A DNA stretch of 64,000 nucleotides from Apostichopus japonicus (taxonomy: Eukaryota; Echinodermata; Holothuroidea; Aspidochirotida; Stichopodidae). Location: positions 25,387,265 to 25,451,264 of the forward strand of contig NC_092573.1 of the NCBI RefSeq assembly GCF_037975245.1. Direction: 5' to 3'. The notes under the pieces are model-generated. The model did no database searches. It was not told the origin of the DNA and saw only the letters and a list, made by a program, of their open reading frames with translations. The position numbers were made by a program, and so were the translations under genes. Below, one piece after another: positions 1,507-46,300 of this stretch. Position 1 is the first letter of the stretch. Each line of letters opens with the position of its first letter.

Positions 1507-4500
1507 GGCTGCGGTGCATTAGGAGTTTATGGATGTGCCTTGCTACATGATGCGGGTTTCTCTAAAATTGTTTGCAGTGATAAGATCCCTACAAGACTTA
1601 AGTTAATAAGAAACTTTGGTGGGATTGGCATATCGGCAGGTAGGTGGTTTTCAAAAAGATATTACTACTACTAGGTGGAAATGAAAGTTAAATGATGATG
1701 TAGAAAGTAGCTATAATGTTTTACACATTAATAAGTAACATTTGTAGTGTTTTCCCACTCTTCAAATATTAACTGTTCTCCAGTTCATGATTTGAACTTA
1801 AATTGGGCACTTTTGTCTTAATAATAAAGACCAGTATTTGCCTTCTGAATCCTAAGTAAATGGATCTTAAAGATTTCATCGGAACTTATCTCGTAGAAGA
1901 TGTTGTTTATCTTAAGTTGACTCGGTAGCCAAATTGGAATGTGTAATCAGGGCTTAGTTGCAGGCAGTAGTTTACTTTGTTCATGCATTGAGAATAAATT
2001 ACCAACAGTGAAGTAGAGCACTTGCTTACATATATATAACACACTCTGATTTATAATTATTTGCTATACATGTACAGTTATGTTCCCCCACCCCCCTTCT
2101 ATCTTATTAGTGTACTGCATTTCTTCTCCTTGCAAGTTCAGGGAATGTGGGCGGGTGGGTTGAACTATGTTGCCTTTCCCTTGCAAACATTTCAGTTTCA
2201 TTTATCAATTTTTCTCCTTCCCTTCCATCCCCCTCCCATCCCCCCCATACCCCCTCTCCGACCTCTGATGCTGGAACTGCTGCCACTGAGTTGAAAGAGA
2301 ACTTACAAAATATCTTCCTATCTTGAATCTTGCAGGAGAAGAACAAGAACGATTAGAGCCAGATTCTGTTGATATCATTATAGAGGTGAGTTTACTCAGA
2401 TCAAATCTTCAAACTCATTTCAAATTCCAAAGTTTTGAATGAGAAATGAAAGAGGATAAAAAGAAGGAAAAAAACTAGTATTATACAATGGAGATTGATA
2501 GAACATAGAAACAATAGACTCTTTATAATTAAGTAATATAAGGGATATAATTAAGTAATATAATGGAATTAAAACAAATGTTCAAATACATACTCCATAT
2601 TGATTTATTGATTCCTTGGCGGTAGCCGTAGGAATCTATGCGGTCATGACTGCGTGTGTATGTGTGTATGTGTGTGTGTGTGTCTGTGTGTGTGTGACGC
2701 CAAGCTTGAAATTAGGTTTTCTCAGCAATCCCAAGGTGGATTGATCTCATTCTTGGTACATAGGTTACCCATCATGAGTAGACGATCCCTATTTATTTTG
2801 GTGCTAATATCATGAATATTAATGAGTGGGCGGGGCTTAGAGTGATTTTCAACAAATGTCAATATCTTCGCAACCGTAAGTTCAATTTTCATGGAACTTG
2901 GTTTGGTGGTACAAGAGGAAAGTCCTCTATATGAATATGGTGACAGTTTGTCCAATCTCATTATTATTCATGAGGGGCGGGGCTAAGTGTTGTTTTTCGC
3001 AAAAAAGCTTGAAATTAGGTTTTCTCAGCAATCCCAAGGTGGATTGATCTCATTCTTGGTACATAGGTTACCCATCATGAGTAGACGATCCCTATTTATT
3101 TTGGTGCTAATATCATGAATATTAATGAGTGGGCGGGGCTTAGAGTGATTTTCAACAAATGTCAATATCTTCGCAACCGTAAGTTCAATTTTCATGGAAC
3201 TTAATTTGGTGGTACAAGAGGAAAGTCCTCTATATGAATATGGTGACAGTTTGTCCAATCTCATTATTATTCATGAGGGGCGGGGCTAAGTGTTGTTTTT
3301 CACAAAAAAGCTTGAAATTAGGTTTTCTCAGCAATCCCAAGGTGGATTGATCTCATTCTTGGTACATAGGTTACCCATCATGAGTAGACGATTCCTATTT
3401 ATTTTGGTGCTAATATCATGAATATTAATGAGTGGGCGGGGCTTAGAGTGATTTTCAACAAATCTTCAGTATGACCCGGCCAGGAGTCGAACCCCTAACC
3501 TTCCAGCTGCAAGTCGGAATTCTACCCCAATACTATTAATGAGGGGGCATGAATATTAATGAGTGGTAGAGCTTAAAGCAAATTCTTTAAAATATCAATT
3601 TGTTCATCAAACTTGAGCTGATAGCAAGGAACAACATTTGTGTTGATGCTACATTAATATTCATAAAAGGTCGGAACCAAGTGTACCCAATGAACCTACA
3701 GTGATATTTAGATGCCAAGGAATCTCAAAACCTCTTGGTTTTCTTGTTGATTAACATATTGACTGTATGCATAGCACTTGCATCATTTAGCCTTGAAAAG
3801 GGACTCTAAGCTTGGTATGATCACAGAATTTCTTAAATTTATTCAATTCAAGTTTAATTCAAGTGTCTTTCTGTGCAATGCATTATTGATGCAGTCATCT
3901 GTACAACATTTCACTTATATCCTCTCATATCATAGTAGCACCTGAAGGGTTCTGTTGCCATGGAAACTATTTTCTACATCACACCTGTTTGACTGGATTT
4001 ACTTAGTAATTGCTTTTGTGATCATACAGTCTGCCAGGCACGATTCATTTGAATTTCAAATCCATCACCCACCAATTGCTTCAATAGTCTCATAGAAATG
4101 GTAAAACTGTAATTTTTATGGTTATTTGAACAAGGAAGCAACAATATATACAGTGGTTATATAAATCACAGCTAGAGAGAGTTATACAATTTTGGCAATG
4201 AATTTTGTCTTTCTTGATTGTAAGTTGTGTTGAACTGACATTTACACTCTGAAAATTTGCATAATAATGAACACATTGAGTGCACACAGAGGATAAACAC
4301 AATTCGACATTCAGATATCAGACCTTGAGAAATTAAAACGACAGTATAAAGCGTTCCCCCTAAAGATAATGAGGGCAGCATTGAAGAACTCATTACACAC
4401 TACAGACTCCGGATGTTTGACATGATTAATTCACTTTGCCTTCGAATGGGTTTCTGTTTGTTGCCGTGTTGATTGAAGCTAACCGTAACAGTCATTGCCG

Positions 4501-14057: not shown

Positions 14058-17000
14058 TACAAATATAAAAGTCATAAAATACATAAAAAACACAAGTCAA
14101 ACACACAGCAAAAGAAGCAAAATACAACATTGGAAAGCAGCAACATTGGAAATGTGACCAGATACTTTCTTAAAATGTTTTTACAAAAGCAAGGTATAGT
14201 AATCCCAACTTGAAATAAATTGAAAAGCCTCTCAATGTGATGTCAATACATCATGTAAATTTCATGGGTAGGTGCAACTTGTTACCATCCAGTACCTTTT
14301 GTATGTGTTTAACTTTACTTAATACAAGGACAACTCTTAGCTGATTGTCTTCAACATGAAGAATAAAAAAAACGTTCTCCCAAGTTACTCCTTTCAGACT
14401 GTTGTTGATGTACTAGCTACATATGTATTAAAATAACAACAATGTTGAATGTACAGATAGGAAGTATGCATTTACTACTGTGCAAACAAGTATCATTTTA
14501 TAAGTTAATATCTATGCCAGCTTCGTGTTTACCTGTAATGAAATTAATTGTCTCTACATTTGTAGCCCAAGCATGAACAATGAAACATATGTAACCTACT
14601 GGGTTTCCCACAAGCTAGCAGCCATTTCATCACATTGTTGTTGATGTGCCTAGGCCTCACAAGGGGGTGGGGAAGGAGCAGACAGAGGTAGCCTAGTCCT
14701 GGATCAATATTGGGGCAAAGGAAAATATGTTGGGGATAAAGAGTATGTGTATTGTACTTATGGAAATATAAACATAAACAGTAGCTTAGCGGTCCCTGGG
14801 GTTAGACCTTTCTCTTCTTGCCTTTGGATGTATGCTCCATTTCGGTTGTCATGCCAGTGCCCACCCTATGTCTAGCTATAGACCTACACTACAGTCAGTA
14901 AAGGCTAAATATTAGTTATTACATTTAATCATAGCATAGGCTATGCATAAGGACACTAGCTTAGAGTTAGTCATCTTAGAATGAATGCCAGGTAATAACA
15001 AATAAAAACTTTGTTGCCTTACGATATTCGTGACTGAGCGAACTTTGAATAAATCAAACATAACTAACTTAGTCATACGGATAACTCCAGTAATGTATGA
15101 AAACTAGCCTAACGACTAACGAGCCTAACCAGTTTGACACGTCATTAAGAAAGAATTTTGCGTTGAGAATTCTACATAATAAATCTTACCAAAGAATGAG
15201 ATATGATGCTTTGGTAGCTATAGTAGAAAAGATCCAACAGTTAATATATGATGTTGAAAATGTTCCGTATTTCCGCTTTTTAAGTTGTAGCGTATTAGTT
15301 TACGTTTTGAATACGATTTGTCTACTTTCTTGCGACTGTTCAGTGCTAGGTGTATCATACAGACTGATTGCAATAATAGCTTCCAACGTGGAACTAGACG
15401 GAGACCTGTTTACAAGTTGATGACGTTAGATTATTTTTAGCCTGACAATGGACTAGTCTAGTTTCTAAACTTCAGCATCCTCTTCAAGTAAATTTAAATT
15501 TAGTTGCGTTAATTTACGTTTTAAATAGCAAATCCTGGAATTAAATTATTTTTCCTATTTCGGCTAAGCAAGATTTATTATTTTACATATAAATCGCTCA
15601 GTTTATTTTGGAAGTAACGTTTACTCTTAACCCTCCACATAATGCAACGGCCATTGAATTCCGTTTCCGGGGCGGGGCAATTTAATCTAGGGCTTTTGGA
15701 TGACGAAATCTTTGAGTTCGGTTAGTGTAGATTAGTGATAGTTACGGTTACTATGTTTCACTTATTGCCAGACAAACATACGGAAGCCTTCAGATATCTT
15801 TTAGATATTTTACCAATCATCGCTATCTTTAGGGAGCGAAAATAAAGCTGTAAATGGCGGGGGGAATATCAGTATTAAGGTGTTATCTTTCTTCTTAAGC
15901 CTTTAAAAATATAGAAATCTGTTGTCGGTCAGTTTAAATAGTGTAAATTTCGTATGCCCTATTGGCGTTCACTTTATGTCTTCTCGGCCTAGATCACGTA
16001 CGTGTAGTATATGTTTCCTTGATGTACATAGCAGATCACTCAGCGAAATTGAACCAAGATTATGTGTATGATCTGTTTCTTCATCAACATACGTCTGCCT
16101 AGGTTGGTCTAACAGCTAGCATAACACAGGCCTATCGTAAACTGGTCAAGAATGACTGCAAGTGTGAATGCGTTATTTTAAGAAAAATACTTTAAATTTC
16201 TCGATATATTTTTCCATTTTCATATAGTTGTGTATTCCAAACCCGTTTCGACTCGTTTGAAAAGGTGTAAAATTCCTGTTTCTTTATCTCTTCTAGTCCG
16301 GTTAGTCGCGATGCCACCGAAAAGTCTAAGTGTGTTACAGACCTCCGTACATTGTCACATCGTGATGAGTAATCAACCATTTAGCAGGCTGAACTCGATT
16401 TTGGGGGTATCCCGTGGAATAGACGCTATCCGCATACAATTGTGTAAATAACTATCGATCGCATTTTCAGTTTTGGGCGCAAGCGTAAGGTAACTGACTC
16501 ATTCCGAGGTGGTGTTAATTGGCGCTACTTGGCCTCCTACATTGCCCTCTAAAGTGATGGCTATAGAGGTCATTACTTTCTAGACGTATTCAAAGAGGCG
16601 ATGGGATTGCTTAATTTGTAACCATTTGATAAATAGCTTTTCGTAAGCAATATACGCAATTAAAGTGGACTGAAGAACTAGTTTAACTAGTTAGTTACAT
16701 TGTTTTCTCGTCCGAGAGACAGTGAGCTCTTGCCACTGATTCACCTGTAGCTGTCCGAACCTTTTCAGAGAGCCAAAGAGAATGCCAATGGCAGTCATAC
16801 ATGGGAATGCCCGCACAAGTGTCTTTTTAGAGGGAGCTGGTTCGATTTATTAAAGTTATGGTGTATGGTTATTTTCAAGAAATATGAGTAGACCAACACA
16901 GGCCCTCGTTTTGTTAAAGGAATAAAATGTTATTCATCTCACTAATTATACAACTAACATATTGTAGGCCTAATCTACATCATGCTGGGGGACTAAGTTT

Positions 17001-21473: not shown

Positions 21474-24400
21474 TTAATGGTTTGGAAAAAAATATGACAA
21501 CGGTTTCTGTTCTCTCTGTGTTTGGCTGATGGAGTTCACATCCTGCAGAGGTTGACGAATTTCTTTGCCTTGTTTTGGATCGCAATGTGATCCAAGGTAT
21601 TTCTAAAAGGGAGAGAGGAAAAAGAAAACAATGGCTTCATTATAGTTTTCATGTTGTAACATAGTAACAAAAAGTCTTTAGTGTCATTCTACCTCACTGT
21701 GGAACCAGCTACCTAATACTCTCATGCCTTCTAATACCTTTATTCAGGAGGCATCTGAAAAAAATCCATTATGCTATATTAATTATACCTGGAAAGGGGG
21801 GAGGGTGGGGCTGGTGGTCGGGAGGCTGTTTATGTGTTCATTACTTGTGTATTATTTCTTTTACTATTTATTCTTATGAGTTTATCATTCAGGGAGTATT
21901 CTACTTCTTAAGCCCTCAAAGGTTTTTAGTTTGCATTCTTTCACTTTTGCCTATAATTTGTAAGTTTCATACTGACATTAGGTACTCTAAAATTGATACA
22001 ACAAATAAATGAATGAATGAAAGAATGAATGGTCTCTGATTAGGATCTGGTGGACGTTGAATCCATAACATAATTCAGTATTTCCCTAAAATGATATTTA
22101 TACATTTAACATTTAACTTGAGTGGGAGAGGAAAGAGGAGTTGTGAAACCAGTAAGCCAACAGGCCTTGTGATTCTTTGACACATTTGATGTGCACACAT
22201 ATAATAACAAAAACAACACACAAGATTCTCAAATTTTGACCATTGCTGACATTATGAGTTCTTGTAGCACTGTGGTCCAATATATCAATTTATGATGTTT
22301 GTTTAAGGTTTACTTTTGGAGTAATCATGTTTATATGGTTTCCAGACATTGACCTCTATTGGTTTAAAATGACCTCTGACCTTTTAACATTTGTCTAAAT
22401 TACATATCTGTATGATCTTGCATGGTTATTACAAACCTTTTGCGATTCAGAAACAAAATGGACAAATTAGCCTAACCAGACACTGATGTGTGATGCCTTT
22501 ATGTGATTATGAAAAATTGTATGATAGGATATAATGCGCACAATTCCCTCAAGGGTGTTTTTTGTAGAAAATGCTTCTATGACAAAGGTGGTTTCACTAA
22601 TGACTTCATCAACTTTTTATCACAATGCTCACTGTACTGAAAGTCTGCATGTGGTACAAGGGTTGAGCAGTTTAAATATAGATGAATGGGTATTTAAAGT
22701 TGTTTTAAGCTGTAAAAACAGATGAACAAAGTTTCCTGAAAATATGATTGAAGATTTTGACAGATGAATGTTGCACAAGAGAAAGATTAACAGGCATTAC
22801 CTGGAGAGCCATGGCTAGCTCTACACTCCGAGGAGAGGTACAGTTTGTTGTGTTTAGCTTAGACATTAGGTTTTCAACCACTCCTTTTGTCATCCCCAAA
22901 GCTGGAGTGGGTGAATCTGAAACAAAGACGTAATCATGATGATGTAATATGGACTATTTAGGTGTTCATTGCAAGTACATTAACATAACACAAACAACAA
23001 CACAGGAGAGACCTTACTTCCTCATCAACACAGATCTGGACAGAACTTGTGCTCACATTTACACAGCTTAGTATGGAACTTTCCCACATATCAACACAGC
23101 TTCAGATGGAACTTCCCCACACATCAAGTTCAACACAGCTTAGGATGGAACTTTCCCACACATCAACACAGACTTAAGCATCTTTATTTGTTCCATGTAG
23201 GTCCAATACATCTGATTCTTATAACTACAGTTTCTCTCTTAACACGGCAGGAAAAAATGGAGGTTAAAAGTTTTGCATAGCAGTTTTGAAGGCTATAAAC
23301 TTTGTCTCTTATAAAATGCTATGGATCATGTGTACAAACACTGCTGTGCATCTTTGCACTTATATAGCAGTATGCCTACTTTGAGATGCGATTCCGGATA
23401 AATCATTCACCTCATGGTGAAGTTTGAAAACTAAATACCGGAAACACATCAAACATTACAAGCCATTTCACGATTGATGGCAATGTGAGCAAAGGGAATA
23501 GATTTTCCGTGGATGGAACAAACCTTTGAAAGATGTTTTTGATGACACATATGGATGATCTAACAATTCTTTAATGGAAGGCCTCTCTTTGGCATCACGA
23601 ACCAAACACCTCTGTCACATGGAAAGAAAATACAAAAAATAGAATAGAAAAGTCATAAATAGGAAATAAACGATTGAAAATTGACGGGAAAACTGTAAAA
23701 GAGCAAACTCCTTCTGGGATTATATGTTTTTATATGTTTTACCTTCGGGGATTATATGTTTTTGCATCATGGTTATAATAATCACTATATTTTAATGACT
23801 TTTCAGCACAGTTGACTAAGAAAACTCGAAAATGAAACTTTTCTTTATCTTCTCTATGTATGCAAATTGGAATCAGAATCTGCCAGTCAGCCATGATGAC
23901 TAGAATAGATGAAATCTTGAACAATTCTATCTACGTATGAACTACTTGAAGACAAATCTAAACAGCTTGAAGGTAAGTGGAGGTACAAGTCCAGAGAAAA
24001 TTTTTAGTCTTAAACATTTTAGTGTACCACTTCTGAATTTTAAAACATTATAGTTCCTCTGTACAACAAACTGCTCCCATACATCGTTAAAAAATTGTAC
24101 AGCAACTTGACCATTTCGTAATGCGATAACCAGAGAAATTATGCCCTGCAAGTATTGAGAAGTAGTCTGCATATTACATGCAAACAAACCATGCAATGAA
24201 TACCCTGTAGAAGGCAATATGACAATTGTACTCACCTTCAATACATCAACAAGATTGCTGTCATGAACGTCAGAAAACTGAATCTTGTAATCGGGATTAC
24301 AGATGGCCTGGAGCTTCATCATGGTGTTTGTGATGGACTGAAATGGTGTCTTACCGTAGGTAATATAATAGAGAATACAGCCCAGTGACCACACGTCACT

Positions 24401-27400
24401 CTTACAGTTTATCTACAGAATGAGAGAGAACCATATATAGGTGATATATTCTAGTTTGTGGTGGACTAAAATAACAAAGAAAGAACAAATTATGATTATA
24501 CAGTAGAGAATACAGCCCATTGCACACATCACTTCTACAGTTTATCTACAGAATAAGAGAGAACCATGTACAGGAAATATATTCTAGTTTGTGGTGGACT
24601 AAAATAACAAAGAACAAATTATGTTATACAGTAGAGAATACAGCCCAGTGACCACACATCACTTCTACAGTTTATCTACAGAATAAGAGAGAACCATGTA
24701 CAGGAAATATATTCTAGTTTGTGGTGGACTAAAATAACAAAGAACAAATTATGTTATACAGTAGAGAATACAGCCCAGTGACCACACATCACTTCTACAG
24801 TTTATCTACAGAATAAGAGAGAACCATGTACAGGAAATATATTCTAGTTTGTGGTGGACTAAAATAACAAAGAACAAATTATGTTATACAGTAGAGAATA
24901 CAGCCCAGTGACCACACATCACTTCTACAGTTTATCTACAGAATGAGAGAGAACCATGTACAGGAAATATATTCTAGTTTGTGGTGGACTAAAATAACAA
25001 AGAACAAATTATGTTATACAGTAGAGAATACAGCCCAGTGACCACACATCACTTCTACAGTTTATCTACAGAATAAGAGAGAACCATGTACAGGAAATAT
25101 ATTCTAGTTTGTGGTGGACTAAAATAACAAAGAACAAATTATGTTATACAGTAGAGAATACAGCCCAGTGACCACACATCACTTCTACAGTTTATCTTCA
25201 GAATAAGAGAGAACCATGTACAGGAAATATATTCTAGTTTGTGATGGACTAAAATAACAAAGAACAAATTATGTTATACAGTAGAGAATACAGCCCAGTG
25301 ACCACACATCACTTCTACAGACTTTATCTTCAGAATGAGAGAGAACCATGTACAGGAAATATATTCTAGTTTGTGGTGGACTAAAATAACAAAGAACAAA
25401 TTATGTTATACAGTAGAGAATACAGCCCAGTGACCACACATCACTTCTACAGTTTATCTTCAGAATAAGAGAGAACCATGTACAGGAAATATATTCTAGT
25501 TTGTGATGGACTAAAATAACAAAGAACAAATTATGTTATACAGTAGAGAATACAGCCCAGTGACCACACATCACTTCTACAGACTTTATCTTCAGAATGA
25601 GAGAGAACCATGTACAGGAAATATATTCTAGTTTGTGATGGACTAAAATAACAAAGAACAAATTAGGTTAAACAGTAAAGAATACAGCCCAGTGACCACA
25701 CATCACTTCTACAGACTTTATCTTCAGAATGAGAGAGAACCATGTACAGGAAATATATTCTAGTTTGTGGTGGACTAAAATAACAAAGAACAAATTATGT
25801 TATACAGTAGAGAATACAGCCCAGTGACCACACATCACTTCTACAGTTTATCTTCAGAATAAGATAGAACCATGTACAGGAAATATATTCTAGTTTGTGA
25901 TGGACTAAAATAACAAAGAACAAATTAGGTTAAACAGTAAAGAATACAGCCCAGTGACCACACATCACTTCTACAGACTTTATCTTCAGAATGAGAGAGA
26001 ACCATGTACAGGAAATATATTCTAGTTTGTGGTGGACTAAAATAACAAAGAACAAATTATGTTATACAGTAGAGAATACAGCCCAGTGACCACACATCAC
26101 TTCTACAGACTTTATCTTCAGAATGAGAGAGAACCATATAGGAAAACATATGCTAGTTTGTGATGGACTGAAGCTAATAAGAAAGAACTATATAGGTAAT
26201 ATAGTAACCATACATGTACTACAGCCCAGTGACCACACATCATTTCTACAGTAGTTTATCTTCAGAATATTAGAGAGAATCATATAGGAAAACATATGCT
26301 AGTTTGTGATGGACTGACATGAGAGAAAGAGAGAACCTTATATATAATATCATAGAGAATACAGCCCAGTGACCACACATCACTCTTAAAGTTTATCTTC
26401 AGAAGGATTTGGAATGAATGAGAATTAAACAGGGTGACTGTTGAAACTACTCTCAACTCATCAAAGAGATGTATAATAAAAGCTTGACTATCCATCCTAA
26501 CCAGGTGCCAAAGTCAATGCCATCGCAGACGGACTTTTCATAACATTTCCTTTTTAGAACTCTTTCACAGCTTGCAAGGAGTATCAGGCAATGAATAGAC
26601 CAGCCAATCACACAACATAAACATGAGATGCATTAACTAACTCTCCATAAAACCTCTTGTTTTCTTCATGTATCAATACTTATCGTCTCCATTATGATAA
26701 GCACTGACATGACAGATCACTATATTAAACACCACGAGACGTACCTTCATGCTGGTATGGTCCCCTCCATGGCTATCTCCTGAGCTTTGGATAGTCTCTG
26801 GTGACATGTAATTTAAGGTTCCTACTTGCGATTCTCGCGTTACACTCGTTCTGTCGCTCTGTATAGAGTTGGCTATTCCAAAGTCGATGAGTTTAAGGCT
26901 ACCCTCCACAAATAAAAAGTTGGCAGGTTTCAGATCCCTGTGAATTATTCCTGGCACAAGAAAGCAAAATGGGGGGAAAATGTTGAACAAAGTCACGAGT
27001 CATGTTTAAAATGTAATATCCTAGCCATGTGCATGCTTTTAATACATAATATGTAATAAGTTTGTTGCCTTTGTGTAACAAAAATGCTATAAACCTCAAG
27101 AAACTTGTCCCTTTTCACACTCTAAGCTGAGGCATAGACAACGCTTCCATATTAACAGATTCATGAGAATCTGACTCAGTCTTGGGCTAGCGATCTTCCT
27201 GCTCAATGTCATGAATCAGCTACATACACAGAATATATACGGTAGTAAATAGTTACAATGGTACATCGCACTAGTTTCTTGGGTGTATCTGCTGTAGTGG
27301 ACTAGAGGAGGTCTGATTAATGACTGGCTATTTTAACAAACGTTTGCTTTGGTCCATTAGAGAACATAGTTTGTCCTAGCATGTGGGTAAGAAGTGGGTG

Positions 27401-34566: not shown

Positions 34567-35389
34567 CTTCCTGATACACTGATTACTTTGGGGTTACTAG
34601 CTTAAATTTGATAAACAATTTATATTTTTCTAGTATCCTGTATACCATTACTGCACTGTTTATGTATGTCTACTCTTGTCTAGCCTATGTATTTGCGAAA
34701 TATATTATTATTAACTGAAATTAACACTAGTAATTTGCACAAAGATTTAAACATTTGTCTTTCTAAAATTGAAGTAATTTCCTATCTCCATCCTGCAACT
34801 GTTGGGTAAACAAAGTCATATACTATGTAGTCCTACAGTATACTGTTGTAGCTTGAAAGGGTCAGCCAAAGCATCATACATCTGCCTAACGTTATGTCAA
34901 TAAGTGTAGTGTAAAGTCTTCCAAGGCCTACTCTAACCTAGACGTATGCCTACTGACATACTATAGCCTATGACTAATTTAGCCTAACGTTAAACTTAAA
35001 GAGTGGCTGAGTTTTGTGTCATTCGACGTTGCGACCTGCATTAACCAACAAACAATTCGAGTAAATGATACCTACAAGAAAAAAGTGCTGCCGTTTGGTT
35101 GAGACTGACGATGTAAGTTATTTTCGTACAAGCTTAGATTCTACAAAGATCTTTGAAGTAAGGTACGGCTTGGGATTACCCAACACTAAAATTTTCGAGT
35201 GATAATTTCAAAACAGACTACCACGTGACAGCAAAACGAGCTGTGATTGGACGTGAGTGAGGACACACATTATAACTATTCTGTCCGTTTTGTTGGTGTT
35301 GTACGATGTAAATTTCGAAAATGTGAACAATACAAAATAGTGATGTTCTTTGCGTGTTCGACTACTTTGGTGAACCATAATTTATAACC

Positions 35390-35814
35390 ATAATTTAATT
35401 CCTGTACTATCATATGGTGCGGAGACCTGGACAACAACAAAAAAACTGGAAAAGAAGTTGAGAGTGACAGAGAGGGCGATGGAAAGAATCATGATTGGAG
35501 TCACAAGGAGAGACAGAGCAACCAACCAAAACTTAAGAGAGAAAACCAATGTCCAAGACATCATAAAGGAAATCAAAGTCAAGAAATGGCGATGGGCCGG
35601 CCATTTGGCCAGGCAACATGATAACAGATGGACAAAGAAAATTACCAACTGGACCCCAAGAACTTGTGTCAGAAGGAGAGGCAGGCAGAGTAGAAGATGG
35701 ACAGATGAACTCAGAGAATTTACAGGTGTTCTATGGCAAAGGAGAGCACAGGACAGATGGAAATGGAAAATCGATGAAGAGGCCTTCCTCCTGCAGTGGA
35801 GCGAAATAGGCTAG
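35390..35814 (+). pseudogene. C-terminal fragment of a non-LTR retrotransposon reverse transcriptase
   Basis: The open frame reads LIPVLSYGAETWTTTKKLEK, then RVTERAMERIMIGVTRRD, KVKKWRWAGHLARQ and RRRGRQSRRWTDELREF. It ends in a TAG at about 35814. The YGAETW and WAGHLAR blocks are typical of the region after the RT domain in RTE/CR1-like endonuclease-reverse transcriptases. No RT active-site motif, endonuclease or upstream frame is present, so this is a 5'-truncated dead copy. Its 3' limit is not clear. Confidence 0.85.
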
Positions 35815-40337: not shown

Positions 40338-43300
40338 TTACTGAAAGCTGGTGTCCTGACTGAATGCTCCAGCCAATCTCAACTCATTGTCCATTAAAAC
40401 ACAGAACATCCTCTGGGGAGATGGCCGCGAGTAGGGAGCTGGTCTTGATACAGTGGTTCTTAAGATAAACTCTCGTCCGGCTGCCGCTGGAAAGTCTGGA
40501 ATTGAAGAAACTGTCTCTGATGTGTCCTCCTCGAGCTTCTCAAATTCTTCAACCATATTTGCTGCCTGTCAAGTGAAAAGCAATTGCTTGTTTTACAGAT
40601 GGAAGATCTTAGTCAGCTAGAGGTTACACACTGTAGGAAATGACATGTCCAAACCATGGTGGGTGATGGCAAATTATCCTTTGAGACATTTTTGCATGTG
40701 TCCGTCCCATGTCACTGAGTACAAATGTGCTTATGTATGTTCACATACAGCAAAGCCTGTTGAAACTGTGATAGACCAATGTGGATGGTCACATTCCCAC
40801 CACTCCCCAAATCAAATAATTTACAAAGTGATGAAGATTTATGCAAACCCTTGATGAAGTGCAATCACAAGTTTTTTGTTTTTTTCTAAATATCTATCAA
40901 TCTCTTACTTGACCAATGCTCTCCTACATAGGCAAATGTAGGTTATGTCTATGAAATGATTCCTTTCATAGCACTTAACATCGAGGCAAAATCATGAAAA
41001 AAATTATAACATGCTTCAGACCATTTGTACAAAGAATTTTAAGGAGGCCAAGATCATTTGTTATCAGGTATCAACATAAACTAACATTGTCATAATTCTA
41101 CACAGTAAACAAGATACCAAACCATAGACGCTCTCTGTATATGTAGTAAAATATAGTCTAAAATAAAACAAAATGCAATCAACATAAGTCCAGAGTGTAT
41201 GTGGACTCACCCTTTGGGCAGATACAAATAGCTTGTGTATAGTGGTGCCTATGTGAAGGAAGTCCAGATTGTATATGAACTCACCCTTTTAGCAGATACA
41301 AATAGTTTGTGTATAGTGGTGCCTATGTTAACTAAGTCCAGATTGTATTTGAACTCACCCTTTGAGCAGATACAAATAGCTTGTGTATAGTGCCACCTAT
41401 ATGCCCCCTTGGTCCATCCTTGACTGGTACTTCTGGTTGGTTTTGAAGATCACACACAAACTCTTCCATGTCCTTCACCTGCTCAGTCTCACCGTTACAT
41501 CCATTAGGGAGGAATTTAGCCATGAGTGATTGGTGCTTGGCAATCAATAACTCAGCCATGCTTATCTGCAGGACAATCTCCTGGGAAACAGAGAGCACAT
41601 TTCATGGTGAGAACTACAACAATTACCACATGAATGATACTTGATAGAATGTAGTTATCATGAGCCTGGCCAAGAACCACATTTGCAAGAATAGGGACAG
41701 ACCATCACGACACTATGAATGAACCTTCTGGAAACGGGAACCAAATTTGCAGATTATACATAAGGTAGATAAAACAAAATGGAACTTCTTTCAACAGTAA
41801 CTCTCTTGGAAGGTGAACACTGAATTAAAGGTCTACTGACACCTATGAACAACATTGTCCTAATAGGTCTAATAAGCATTAGAAATTATCATGAAAATAG
41901 CTTCAACTCCCATTAAAATCCATCAAAGATTGACCATTTTACAAGTTTTTTCTTAATTCTAGTTTTATTTTTGAATAAACATTAGCTAAACAATATTTCT
42001 CTAACATTTTTCTACACTAATACCTTACAGTAGAATCAAGTGGAGGAGAGAATGACTGACTCACTTCATACTTTCAACTTGAAACAAAAACAATGAAATA
42101 GCGAGTCTTTTTTCATGGTTGTGAAACCTTTTCCTACATCAATACCTTACAGTGGAATCAACTAGAAGTGAGAATGACTGACTCACTTCATACTTTTTTA
42201 CATCCTGCACAGGTGTTCTTGTAATTCGGGAGGCGGTGTTTACAAGTTGACCAAAGTGAGGTTGAAGGGAAGGTATTGATTCACCACCTGAATAAGAAAA
42301 TACAAATATAAGATAACATAATAATGAACAAAGTAACCAAATCATTAGCTCATAACTTCCATTTGACTCTTGTGCCATTTTAAGTTTTTCTAGTGTAGTA
42401 GATAGAAATTTTCTGTACACCAGCTGCTACTCAGTTTAGAATTTTACATAAATCATAAAATATTTTTCATTAAAGATCACATTTTCACAAACTGAGAACA
42501 TCCAGAAGCAGATTAAATCCTACCATCATAGTCATATGTGTCTTCCAGCAATCTGGCATGCCAGACTATAGGGTCAACAAACCAGAAGCATATTGAACAT
42601 TAAATGAAATTGATTAATTAAGCTTCCACGGTTGAGCTGATTACAGCTGTAAGGTGAGAGAGTTATGCTATTGGGGATCTTACTTGTCAAAGAATGAACT
42701 TGGCAAAAGGATACCAAACTTCTCCTCCCAAGTGGGACCAGATACAGGGGGGGGGGGAGTCCATTTCACTTTTCATCTGTACCTCTTTGAAGAAATGTTT
42801 GTGAGGGTAATCTCTGAGTTACCCTCAACCATCCAGCTTTCTCTAGATCTGTGAATTGCTAGCTACAGTTGTGATTCATACCTGCTTCCTCTAATCTCTC
42901 CAGGGCAGCTTGTATGAGGACAGGGAGAAGGTTGGTGATGACTTCTGAAGGCTTCAATGCAGCTAGGAAATGAAGTACCTTCTCTGCCTCTTTGGTATCA
43001 TCAAACAAACGCTTTTGTCTGTGAGCTGGCATCGGTTTGGACTGACTCCAAACCTCCATCCACATGTTACCTGGGAGCTTCAGTAGCCAGAACAAAGAAA
43101 AAAATTCAAAGTTTTTACCTCTGTAACTTTACTACCTAAATATTAACTCCTTCTGGCCTATTTTTGTACCAGGTTAATTTTGGCCAGCAATGTTCATACT
43201 GATCTGGTTCCCCTGTTGTGACGTGAGCTGTATCCCTTTACTGTTATTCAGTCTTATGAGAGCATTTGTATGTGTAGTATAAGGCTTCGAATCCTTCATA

Positions 43301-46300
43301 TACACTGCTACAATGCTGTATAGATGTTTCTTAACATACCTGCATTCTTTGACTCAGATGTCCCTGTGAAGGTTTCTCTTTACCCAGAACTATACAATGC
43401 TGTATAGATGTTTGTTAATGTACCTGCATTCTTGGACTCAGATGTCCCTGTGAAGGTTTCTCCTTACCCAGACCTACACAATGCTGTATAGATGTTTCTT
43501 AACATACCTGCATTCTTGGACTCAGATGTCCCTGTGAAGGTTTCCTCCCATCAGTCGTCTCATTCTCCTTCTCCTCCTTCTCCTCCTCTTCTCCTTCGAC
43601 CCAATCTCTCGGAGAGTACCACCTCACAAAATCTTCTAACGAACAACCAGGATTAGCTGCCTGAAATGGATTAACTTCAAAGTTAATTTGTTGCGTGACG
43701 AAAATGTAACCAATTCCCTCTATTTGAATTGCATTAACCTTCTAACATGTATAAATTATATTTAATGGAAGTGATCAAGTATATGGTTAAGCATAAATTG
43801 AATAGATACAATGAAGACAACCGTTTTCTTACTAACCAATTGACAACAATTTCTACAACACTAAATGCCAATTGCCTTCTCTTCTTTCATTCATTCAGGA
43901 AGCATCCAATAATACCACATTAGGTTATACTAATTATATCCATTATATGCATTTGTGTGTCAGAGGATGGGGTAGGTGGGAGGGAGGGAGGGGGTTACCG
44001 AGGTTGCTAATTTCTACTATTACGGTGGAGTTTTATTTGATTCTTTCTGCCTTTTTGTGTATTTCACTCAGGGCTAATTCAACTTGTTAAATCCTCAAGT
44101 TTTTTTTTTTAGTTTAGTTCCTCTCACTTTGTCAATTTGCATACTTACTCTTTTTACTTTGATATAAAACATGAATATAAAATGAATACGAATGTAATAT
44201 TATCACAGTCAAAGCAATAATATCCATTCACCATAACCCATCACGGAGGACAAACAGACCCATAATGACTTCCACACTACTTACAACAATTTAGCTTTAC
44301 AACCATAGAACCTGGCAATGTATTCATATGAAAATTCCAATCATTTTAAAGAGGTATTTAAGTATGCAGCAATAATGTAAGGATGCTCTCAACTGCAGCA
44401 AAGTAAAAACATTTTTATATTAGTTGATAAACAAGAGCATCAATGACGCAGTATCTCAATACTGGAAGTTTTAATTTTGATTCCTAATTTCAAATCTTTG
44501 CTCTGTCTCTACAATTATCAATATCAATCATGGTACAACAAATATATAACTTGCATTTTTGCTACTTTGCCACGAATAGTCTCTTGCAGGTTACACTTTA
44601 TCCTGCTAGTCTTGCCTTTAGCGCTCATTGCCTGTTAGTCGAAAGAACGACGTTGCAAGGTTTAGTAATGTCATAGAATATTTAAGAACTTGTTTTTTAT
44701 GTGGTATCCTTCATCTTGGGTCAGTCTCTGTTGGACTTTTTGGTCATATAGTTTGACGTCAATGACAACAGCCAAATTAGAAGAGGCGAACAACTCGACC
44801 ATATTCTTGATGCCTGCCTTGAGAGCTAGGCCTATTGACCTACTGTATGTTACTGTAGACTGTAGTGGTGACTACCATCAAAACTGTGTCCACTTCTAGA
44901 TATCAAAACAACCCACGTTTTTCCATCTCAATATTTCTGACATGAAGATTTCATGGATTTATGACTTGGAAAAAATGTAAAAGAAGATTACAAGTTTTTA
45001 TATGCAAGTGATGGGTGGCCTCCTCCTCCCCTAATAGCCACCTCAGTTCCTCTCCATTTTGTTATTTTATTTTAACTCTTTGTACATTTGATGTCAAACA
45101 TTACAGGTTCAAAAGAAAGCTAACATACTTCTTATAACCTTATACATCTTATATCCTTATAAATAAAACATAACCTTATACAATTTTTATAGTCTTATAA
45201 AAGTTGTGATGCTATGGCCGGCTCCTCTTTTATACGTACCCATCAAACAAACTTACCCTGGTCCTTCCTAGGAAAAGCTGTCTGAACACCAGTACAATGC
45301 TAATGTGGCTATCACTGAAAGCCTAATAGGCCTAGGTAAGGGGGCCTAGGCCTATATATATATTTTTTAAATGCATTAGGCCTACAGTAAGTAGCCTTCA
45401 GAAGTACAACAATGTGTAAACGTAATTATACAAAAATACATGAAGGGCAATCAAACAAACTTATCATGGCCCTCGCTCTGAAAAGCTACCTGAACCTCAG
45501 TACAATCCTTAAATGTATGTTACAAAACCGAAGGCCTAATATTAATTAAATGCACTACGCAAAATTCAAAAGTACACAATGTGTGCATTTAGCATGCAAT
45601 ACACAACACCTTGCGTACCTAACTACGGTAAAGAAAATTGGTCGCGAGTGTAGCCATTTTCGTATATGTAACATGTAGCTGTCCATGAGTCATAGCCAAT
45701 CTGCTATAAACCAGACTTGGAGGCGGGGCTTAATCATCAAAAACGGACCTTTTTACTAAAAGTAGGGGCGGCAGCTCAGTGTTGTTTTAAGAAAGAAAAA
45801 TCATTTAAGCATCAAATAAAGCAAATAAAAGCCATAAAATATCATATACAGCTAGTAAAATTCTTATTAATACCTACCTGTAAACAACAAATGAAAGTTT
45901 AAAATGTTAATAAAATATATAATACATGGGACCCTATCTTAGACGATACCACTGTTGAAAGACAATTCTATTCTATTCTCTTTCATAAAACATAAGTTTT
46001 GGAGCGTGTGCAAAAATGCGTTGTTTCAACTGTATTTCAGTCCAAATTGGCCCGATTTGGACATAAATCGGTGAAAAAGTCATAGAATGAGATAAAATTC
46101 TCGAATAAAAAATAGCAACTTTTGTTGGTCTATATGATATATGCTTGCTCTGAAAATTCCAGAGTAAAGGAACTTTATATGAGGACGCTGAAAAATTTTT
46201 AAGAGAAGAGAGAGTCCCACTTACTGTTACAATATCTCTATACATGTAATGTATTGAGATAAAAATGACTCACCTTGAAAGCACCCATATCAGATAGCAG

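Follow-up and report, generated by a model that had tools for sequence, protein, structure and literature searches.

A boundary-spanning minisatellite ahead of a TTK kinase exon in the sea cucumber Apostichopus japonicus

The TTK/Mps1 kinase gene of the sea cucumber Apostichopus japonicus contains an intron in which the start of the following exon, acceptor site included, is repeated many times before the exon itself is reached, which raises the question of what these copies are and whether they matter for splicing of the gene. The intron lies within a 64,000-nucleotide stretch of contig NC_092573.1 (assembly GCF_037975245.1, positions 25,387,265 to 25,451,264), referred to here as the window. 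An earlier note on the sequence had described about 15 decoy exon starts with acceptor sites in this intron. We conclude that the array is probably a mostly silent minisatellite that was seeded by a tandem duplication across the intron-exon boundary, a type of structure that has been called a "mirage" in amphioxus.

The gene is on the minus strand and was named from its joined exons, which match human TTK chains (best E value, 1.2e-61). The array-bearing intron sits between two kinase-domain exons. The exon that follows the intron, designated the true exon, is intact, and human TTK aligns there without break or insertion. The array directly precedes this exon in transcription order, and the decoys are transcribed before the true acceptor, as the earlier note had stated. 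Tandem Repeats Finder called the array at 24369 to 26404; we delimited 15 decoy units (u1 to u15, u1 being farthest from the true exon), in agreement with the number first estimated, and the start of the true exon forms a 16th copy. The units are arranged head to tail and are 130 to 133 bp long, except for the two farthest from the exon (137 and 144 bp), with u3 to u14 each measuring 130 or 132 bp. The AG was part of the pattern used to locate the units, but the spacing of 130 to 144 bp leaves no space for an overlooked unit.

Each unit spans the splice site, combining intronic and exonic sequence, and the intact exon adjoins the array. A core unit comprises about 41 nt of intron and spacer with the acceptor and about 90 nt derived from the exon, in the order of pyrimidine tract and acceptor, 89 or 91 nt of exon-like sequence, and spacer. 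In the core units, the exon-like part corresponds to nucleotides 1 to 87 of the exon's 177, which bears out the proposal that the 5' part of the exon and its acceptor gave rise to the array. In the edge units the exon-like part is 95 nt (u1), 104 nt (u2), and 92 nt (u15) long. The claim that most copies preserve the AG and then 18 sense codons before a TAA needs to be divided. The acceptor AG is present in all 15 units, but 18 codons followed by TAA were found, reading on from the upstream exon, in only 7 of the 15. Another five carry a 2-nt insertion that places them out of frame, with a TAA after 17 codons, and the stops in u1, u2, and u15 come after 38, 23, and 47 codons, respectively. The predicted consequence is unaffected, because every unit reaches a stop and would truncate the kinase if spliced in.

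Recent homogenization of the array, also previously suggested, is supported by the 93 to 100% pairwise identity of core units u3 to u14, within which only nine alignment columns vary, two of them being the insertion. Units u1 and u2 are 73 to 77% identical to the core, and u15 is 85 to 91% identical. This pattern is one of concerted evolution in the center of the array, with the edge units excluded. Due to the near-identity of the units, the retention of the AG is uninformative about function. Alternation of two unit types as a 262-base higher-order repeat fared less well. Mean identity at unit lags of 1 to 6 is 97.4, 98.3, 98.1, 96.9, 97.4, and 97.0%, which gives lag 2 a slight advantage over lag 3, but the highest Tandem Repeats Finder score belongs to a 394-bp period (3299 versus 3238 for the 262-bp repeat). 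Classified by the 2-nt insertion, units u3 to u14 follow the order A A B A A B A B B B B B, and alternation is therefore local. The 262-bp higher-order repeat is thus weak.

Several other classes of repeat were considered and rejected. The array is not part of a dispersed satellite, because a search of the whole 671.6-Mb genome at an E value of ≤0.001 detected no other copy, the array matching itself only. Nor is it a tandem duplication of mutually exclusive exons, because the core units match 87 of the 177 exon nucleotides and are without a good donor. Recursive (ratchet) splice sites are defined by an acceptor joined to a donor, AG/GT. The sites in the TTK units read AG/AT (15 of 15) and AG/TC (15 of 15) and do not qualify.

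The splice sites were scored with consensus weights, and the scores are crude. The true acceptor scored 5.6. The acceptors of u11 to u15 scored 5.6 to 6.1, and those of u1 to u10, which end in AAG instead of TAG, scored 0.3 to 3.5; the earlier note mentioned neither this weaker ending nor the second acceptor-like site that each of the 15 units carries. No usable donor was found 20 to 125 nt past the decoy acceptors, the best score being 1.1 or lower in all 15 units, whereas the true exon has a donor (AAG/GTGAGT) that scored 8.4, positioned 177 nt past the acceptor. By these scores, the true site stands out through its donor and not through the strength of its acceptor. With a strong donor of its own and none close to the decoys, the true exon is probably the one favored by exon definition.

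All three structural features of mirages that were evaluated were found in the TTK array: tandem units, a boundary-spanning position next to an intact exon, and a homogenized center. Amphioxus mirages have been reported in BflGb6, BflGb9, Adh3, PGBD5, and troponin C (PMC3087553 and PMC3902484, which refer to Adh3 and troponin C by citation). As described there, these are minisatellite-like repeats over an intron-exon boundary in which the exon is kept and splice signals are present in many copies, as in TTK. The likeness to BflGb6 is especially close, with the 3' end of an intron and the 5' part of an exon duplicated in units of 150 to 160 bp and a homogenized center between diverged edges, although the two reported BflGb6 haplotypes have 6 and 3 extra units rather than 15 (PMC3087553). 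That the TTK array is in an echinoderm rather than in a cephalochordate is a difference in range, not in structure; a further difference is that the gene encodes a kinase. A survey of open-licence papers, which does not establish absence from print, found no echinoderm report of mirage-type arrays, and the reports that were found all concerned amphioxus. The TTK array is real and striking, and it adds a new phylum to the range of this little-known type of structure.

These features are best explained as follows. A tandem duplication crossing the intron-exon boundary would have seeded the minisatellite, which could then have grown to 15 extra units by unequal exchange or slippage, surviving because one complete copy of the exon was kept at its 3' edge. 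The splicing machinery would pair the true acceptor with the strong donor 177 nt farther on and skip the decoys, so that the array would be largely silent, apart perhaps from some truncated transcripts arising by leakage. As far as sequence can indicate, silence is most likely.

Similar arrays recur elsewhere in the genome, again at exon edges. The window contains 17 local duplication clusters, of which 4 are at nameable exon edges, the exons mapped being those of TTK and of RAB3GAP1, which was named by its match to a human chain (E value, 8.3e-47) and which has three cases at three nearby exons. To estimate a base rate, the best-scoring Pfam loci were sampled, comprising the best 30 of at least 134 kinase matches, the best 30 of at least 70 myosin-head matches, and the best 20 of at least 85 dynein DHC_N2 matches. 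Repeats were judged only within 40 to 60 nt of the matched stretch, and the exon-edge counts are lower bounds. Exon-edge arrays were present at at least 1 of the 30 kinase loci (L020), at least 3 of the 30 myosin loci (L035, L056, and L062), and at least 1 of the 20 dynein loci (L082), or at the matched exon in at least 4 of the 50 myosin and dynein loci together. Many of the sampled kinase matches consist of a single long open frame and hence offered few edges. L021 contains a kinase exon resembling that of L020 but without an array of this type at its end.

Of the 80 sampled loci, 13 had paired repeats at the matched exon or no more than 40 nt from it; 5 of these were counted as mirages and 8 were not. 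The array in L068 starts past the donor, L053 has a GGAGA simple repeat, and L049 has a TA repeat adjoining the exon. The remaining five (L025, L028, L029, L030, and L033) are related kinase genes in which the coding tail is repeated past the stop, not at an intron edge. Locus L041 was flagged at first, but on closer inspection its matched exon had no such pair. In L025 the copies of the kinase coding tail are in repeats of about 245 bp after the stop codon (2157 to 3284); L028, L029, L030, and L033 have the same tail with repeats beside it.

Table. Positions of the TTK features and of the exon-edge arrays found elsewhere (L, sampled locus, with positions within the locus)
Feature	Location	Positions	Strand	Description
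True TTK exon	window	24236..24412	-	177 nt; ends ...VLK; acceptor TTCTGTAG; donor AAG/GTGAGT; aligns with human TTK
Upstream TTK exon	window	26745..26950	-	ends ...HTSMK; donor AAG/GTACGT
Intron holding the array	window	24413..26744	-	2332 nt, of which the array is 1984 nt
Intronic array, 15 exon-edge units	window	24421..26404	-	u1 26404-26268; u2 26267-26124; u3-u14; u15 24553-24421
First bases of decoys u11-u15	window	24545, 24675, 24805, 24935, 25065	-	acceptor TTCTGTAG, same as the true one
First bases of ten decoys u1-u10	window	within 25195..26396	-	weaker acceptor TTCTGAAG
Second acceptor-like sites	window	24465..26313	-	one per unit, n = 15; core TTTGTTCTTTGTTATTTTAG/TCC
RAB3GAP1 donor-side array	window	43309..43544	-	84 bp x 2.8; about 37 nt of exon end (...GHLSPRMQ/, exon end 43508) plus donor
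RAB3GAP1 donor-side duplication	window	42003..42196	-	offset 122 bp, two copies; about 10 nt of exon (...AAGTATGAA/GTGAGT)
RAB3GAP1 donor-side array	window	41185..41403	-	74 bp x 2.8; about 42 nt of exon end (...HKLFVSAQR/) plus donor
Kinase donor-side array	L020	1854-2354		exon end plus donor GTAAGTAT; 31 bp x 15.9
Myosin donor-side array	L035	1729-2651		exon end copied into following intron; 53 bp x 17.4
Myosin donor-side duplication	L056	1589-2010		exon end copied into following intron; two copies 220 bp apart, 91%
Myosin donor-side duplication	L062	1476-1922		exon end copied into following intron; two copies, 80%
Dynein heavy chain donor-side array	L082	552-1536		about 30 nt of exon end plus donor; 66 bp x 14.9, 94% matches

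The number of such arrays can be compared with random placement of the 43 duplication clusters (median unit, 107 bp) in the 161,451 bp of the 50 myosin and dynein loci. With one donor and one acceptor known for each locus, chance placement would yield a total of 1.19 cases on the donors and 1.19 on the acceptors. With both edges combined, 4 cases were observed versus 2.4 expected (probability of 4 or more, 0.22), and thus enrichment of duplications at exon edges is not above chance. In a genome that is rich in local tandem duplications, some of which hit boundaries, no special affinity for exon edges is needed. For acceptors alone, none was observed versus 1.19 expected (probability of none, 0.30). 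Including the window, the tally is 8 donor-side cases and 1 acceptor-side case (TTK), compared with 5 and 0 in the samples alone, but the 8:1 tally mixes the samples with a window that was chosen for its array and hence is not a random draw. A tentative explanation, which we regard as somewhat doubtful, is that exon-edge arrays occur genome-wide in this sea cucumber, at several percent of exons, and that the donor bias reflects selection imposed by transcription order, with decoy donors tolerated and upstream decoy acceptors mostly purged. Such a bias would make sense if upstream decoy acceptors are more harmful than downstream decoy donors. The recurring exon-edge arrays with donor bias are more interesting than the TTK case alone.

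Several observations weigh against interpreting the TTK array as a mostly silent minisatellite. Five of the decoy acceptors match the true one in strength, and the second acceptor-like site in each of the 15 units scored 6.6 to 8.3 by this crude measure, compared with 5.6 for the true acceptor. Within the true exon there is a donor-like ACG/GTAAGA (score of 4.6, at 58 nt), which is 191 nt from u15, and u15 could also reach the true donor via a 310-nt exon containing a stop. Furthermore, the other eight cases are donor-side, with donors alone slightly exceeding expectation in the myosin and dynein samples (4 observed versus 1.19 expected; probability of 4 or more, 0.03), and 15 upstream acceptors are the type of sequence that selection would be expected to remove.

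The array might instead be functional. In this interpretation, competition from the upstream acceptors would yield truncated transcripts that are decayed, lowering or timing TTK output, with copy number tuning the dose. The presence of the AG in every unit, the stops that all 15 frames encounter after 17 to 47 codons, the five acceptors equal to the true one, and the second good acceptor in each unit would be in accordance with this. Intronic tandem repeats in human genes, the variable-number tandem repeats of TERT intron 6 and ABCA7, may affect splicing through the repeat or its copy number, but the abstracts of these reports make no mention of units that copy exon edges, unlike TTK (PMC3948165 and PMC5954066). 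We nevertheless consider functional decoys unlikely. Amphioxus mirages reportedly leave regular splicing undisturbed (PMC3087553 and PMC3902484), no donor scoring above 1.1 is available 20 to 125 nt from any of the 15 decoy acceptors, and arrays of the same type recur in the genome in a number that is not above chance for both edges. The suggestion that the TTK copies form a special set of decoys is weakened by these same findings. Given the near-identity of the units, the kept AG is no evidence of function.

The intron-gain model, in which a tandem duplication inside a gene copies splice-relevant sequence, has a likeness to the TTK array. In contrast to that model, the TTK duplication crosses a boundary that was already there and makes an old intron longer, with no new intron seen in the coding frame. 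Intron gain by tandem genomic duplication has been described (e.g., PMC4974935), and a published model for amphioxus globins proposes that mirage units may be recruited as exons, with degenerate repeats in a BflGb13 intron as support (PMC3087553). It is very unlikely that the TTK units serve in this manner as a source of new introns or of a new exon. Although u1 is open for 38 codons, no good donor is close to the decoy acceptors, and the true exon is intact, with no insertion there in the human TTK alignment. It is hardly credible that the array is an assembly artifact that inflates a short repeat. Tandem repeats are error-prone, and the BflGb6 array seemed misassembled in the amphioxus draft (PMC3087553). 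However, the genome fits a published A. japonicus assembly made with HiFi reads with a mean length of 14.7 kb, about seven times the array length, at 64-fold coverage (PMC10344927). Reads of this length can span a 2-kb array, and thus the copy number is probably correct. The variant pattern among the units is consistent, and comparable arrays are present at eight other exon ends.

Some features unrelated to the TTK array were also observed. A 303-bp unit is repeated 2.5 times with 99% identity at window positions 2702 to 3463, a recent-looking tandem duplication, and an open frame at 35374 to 35814 resembles by eye what we take to be the end of a long interspersed nuclear element (LINE) reverse transcriptase. 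The mitochondrial contig of the assembly (C35; 16,099 bp) was recognized from COX1 by Pfam, and its frames are open under echinoderm code 9. The order after COX1, as read from translations, is ND4L-COX2-ATP6-COX3-ND3-ND4-ND5-ND6(-)-CYTB, a transfer RNA cluster, and ND1-ND2, presumably the echinoid/holothuroid arrangement. This mitochondrial genome speaks against a cephalochordate origin, which the known range of mirages might have suggested; a search for the GFP family had no match, a result that does not demonstrate absence. Further COX1 matches at 14745 to 31219 of contig C29 are perhaps mitochondrion-derived sequence or a second mitochondrial assembly.

Exon-edge arrays are a warning to gene annotators that the copies may be called exons, as exemplified by lancelet PGBD5, for which one annotation mistook the repeats for an exon (PMC3902484). 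More broadly, the TTK array and its counterparts extend a curiosity of single amphioxus genes to another phylum and suggest that such arrays may occur frequently there. An intact exon adjoined by acceptors or donors that are nearly identical offers a natural test of the relative importance of the site itself, exon definition, and transcription order. If the donor bias is indeed the result of selection, the TTK array would be a natural experiment in acceptor choice in which the decoys are ignored.

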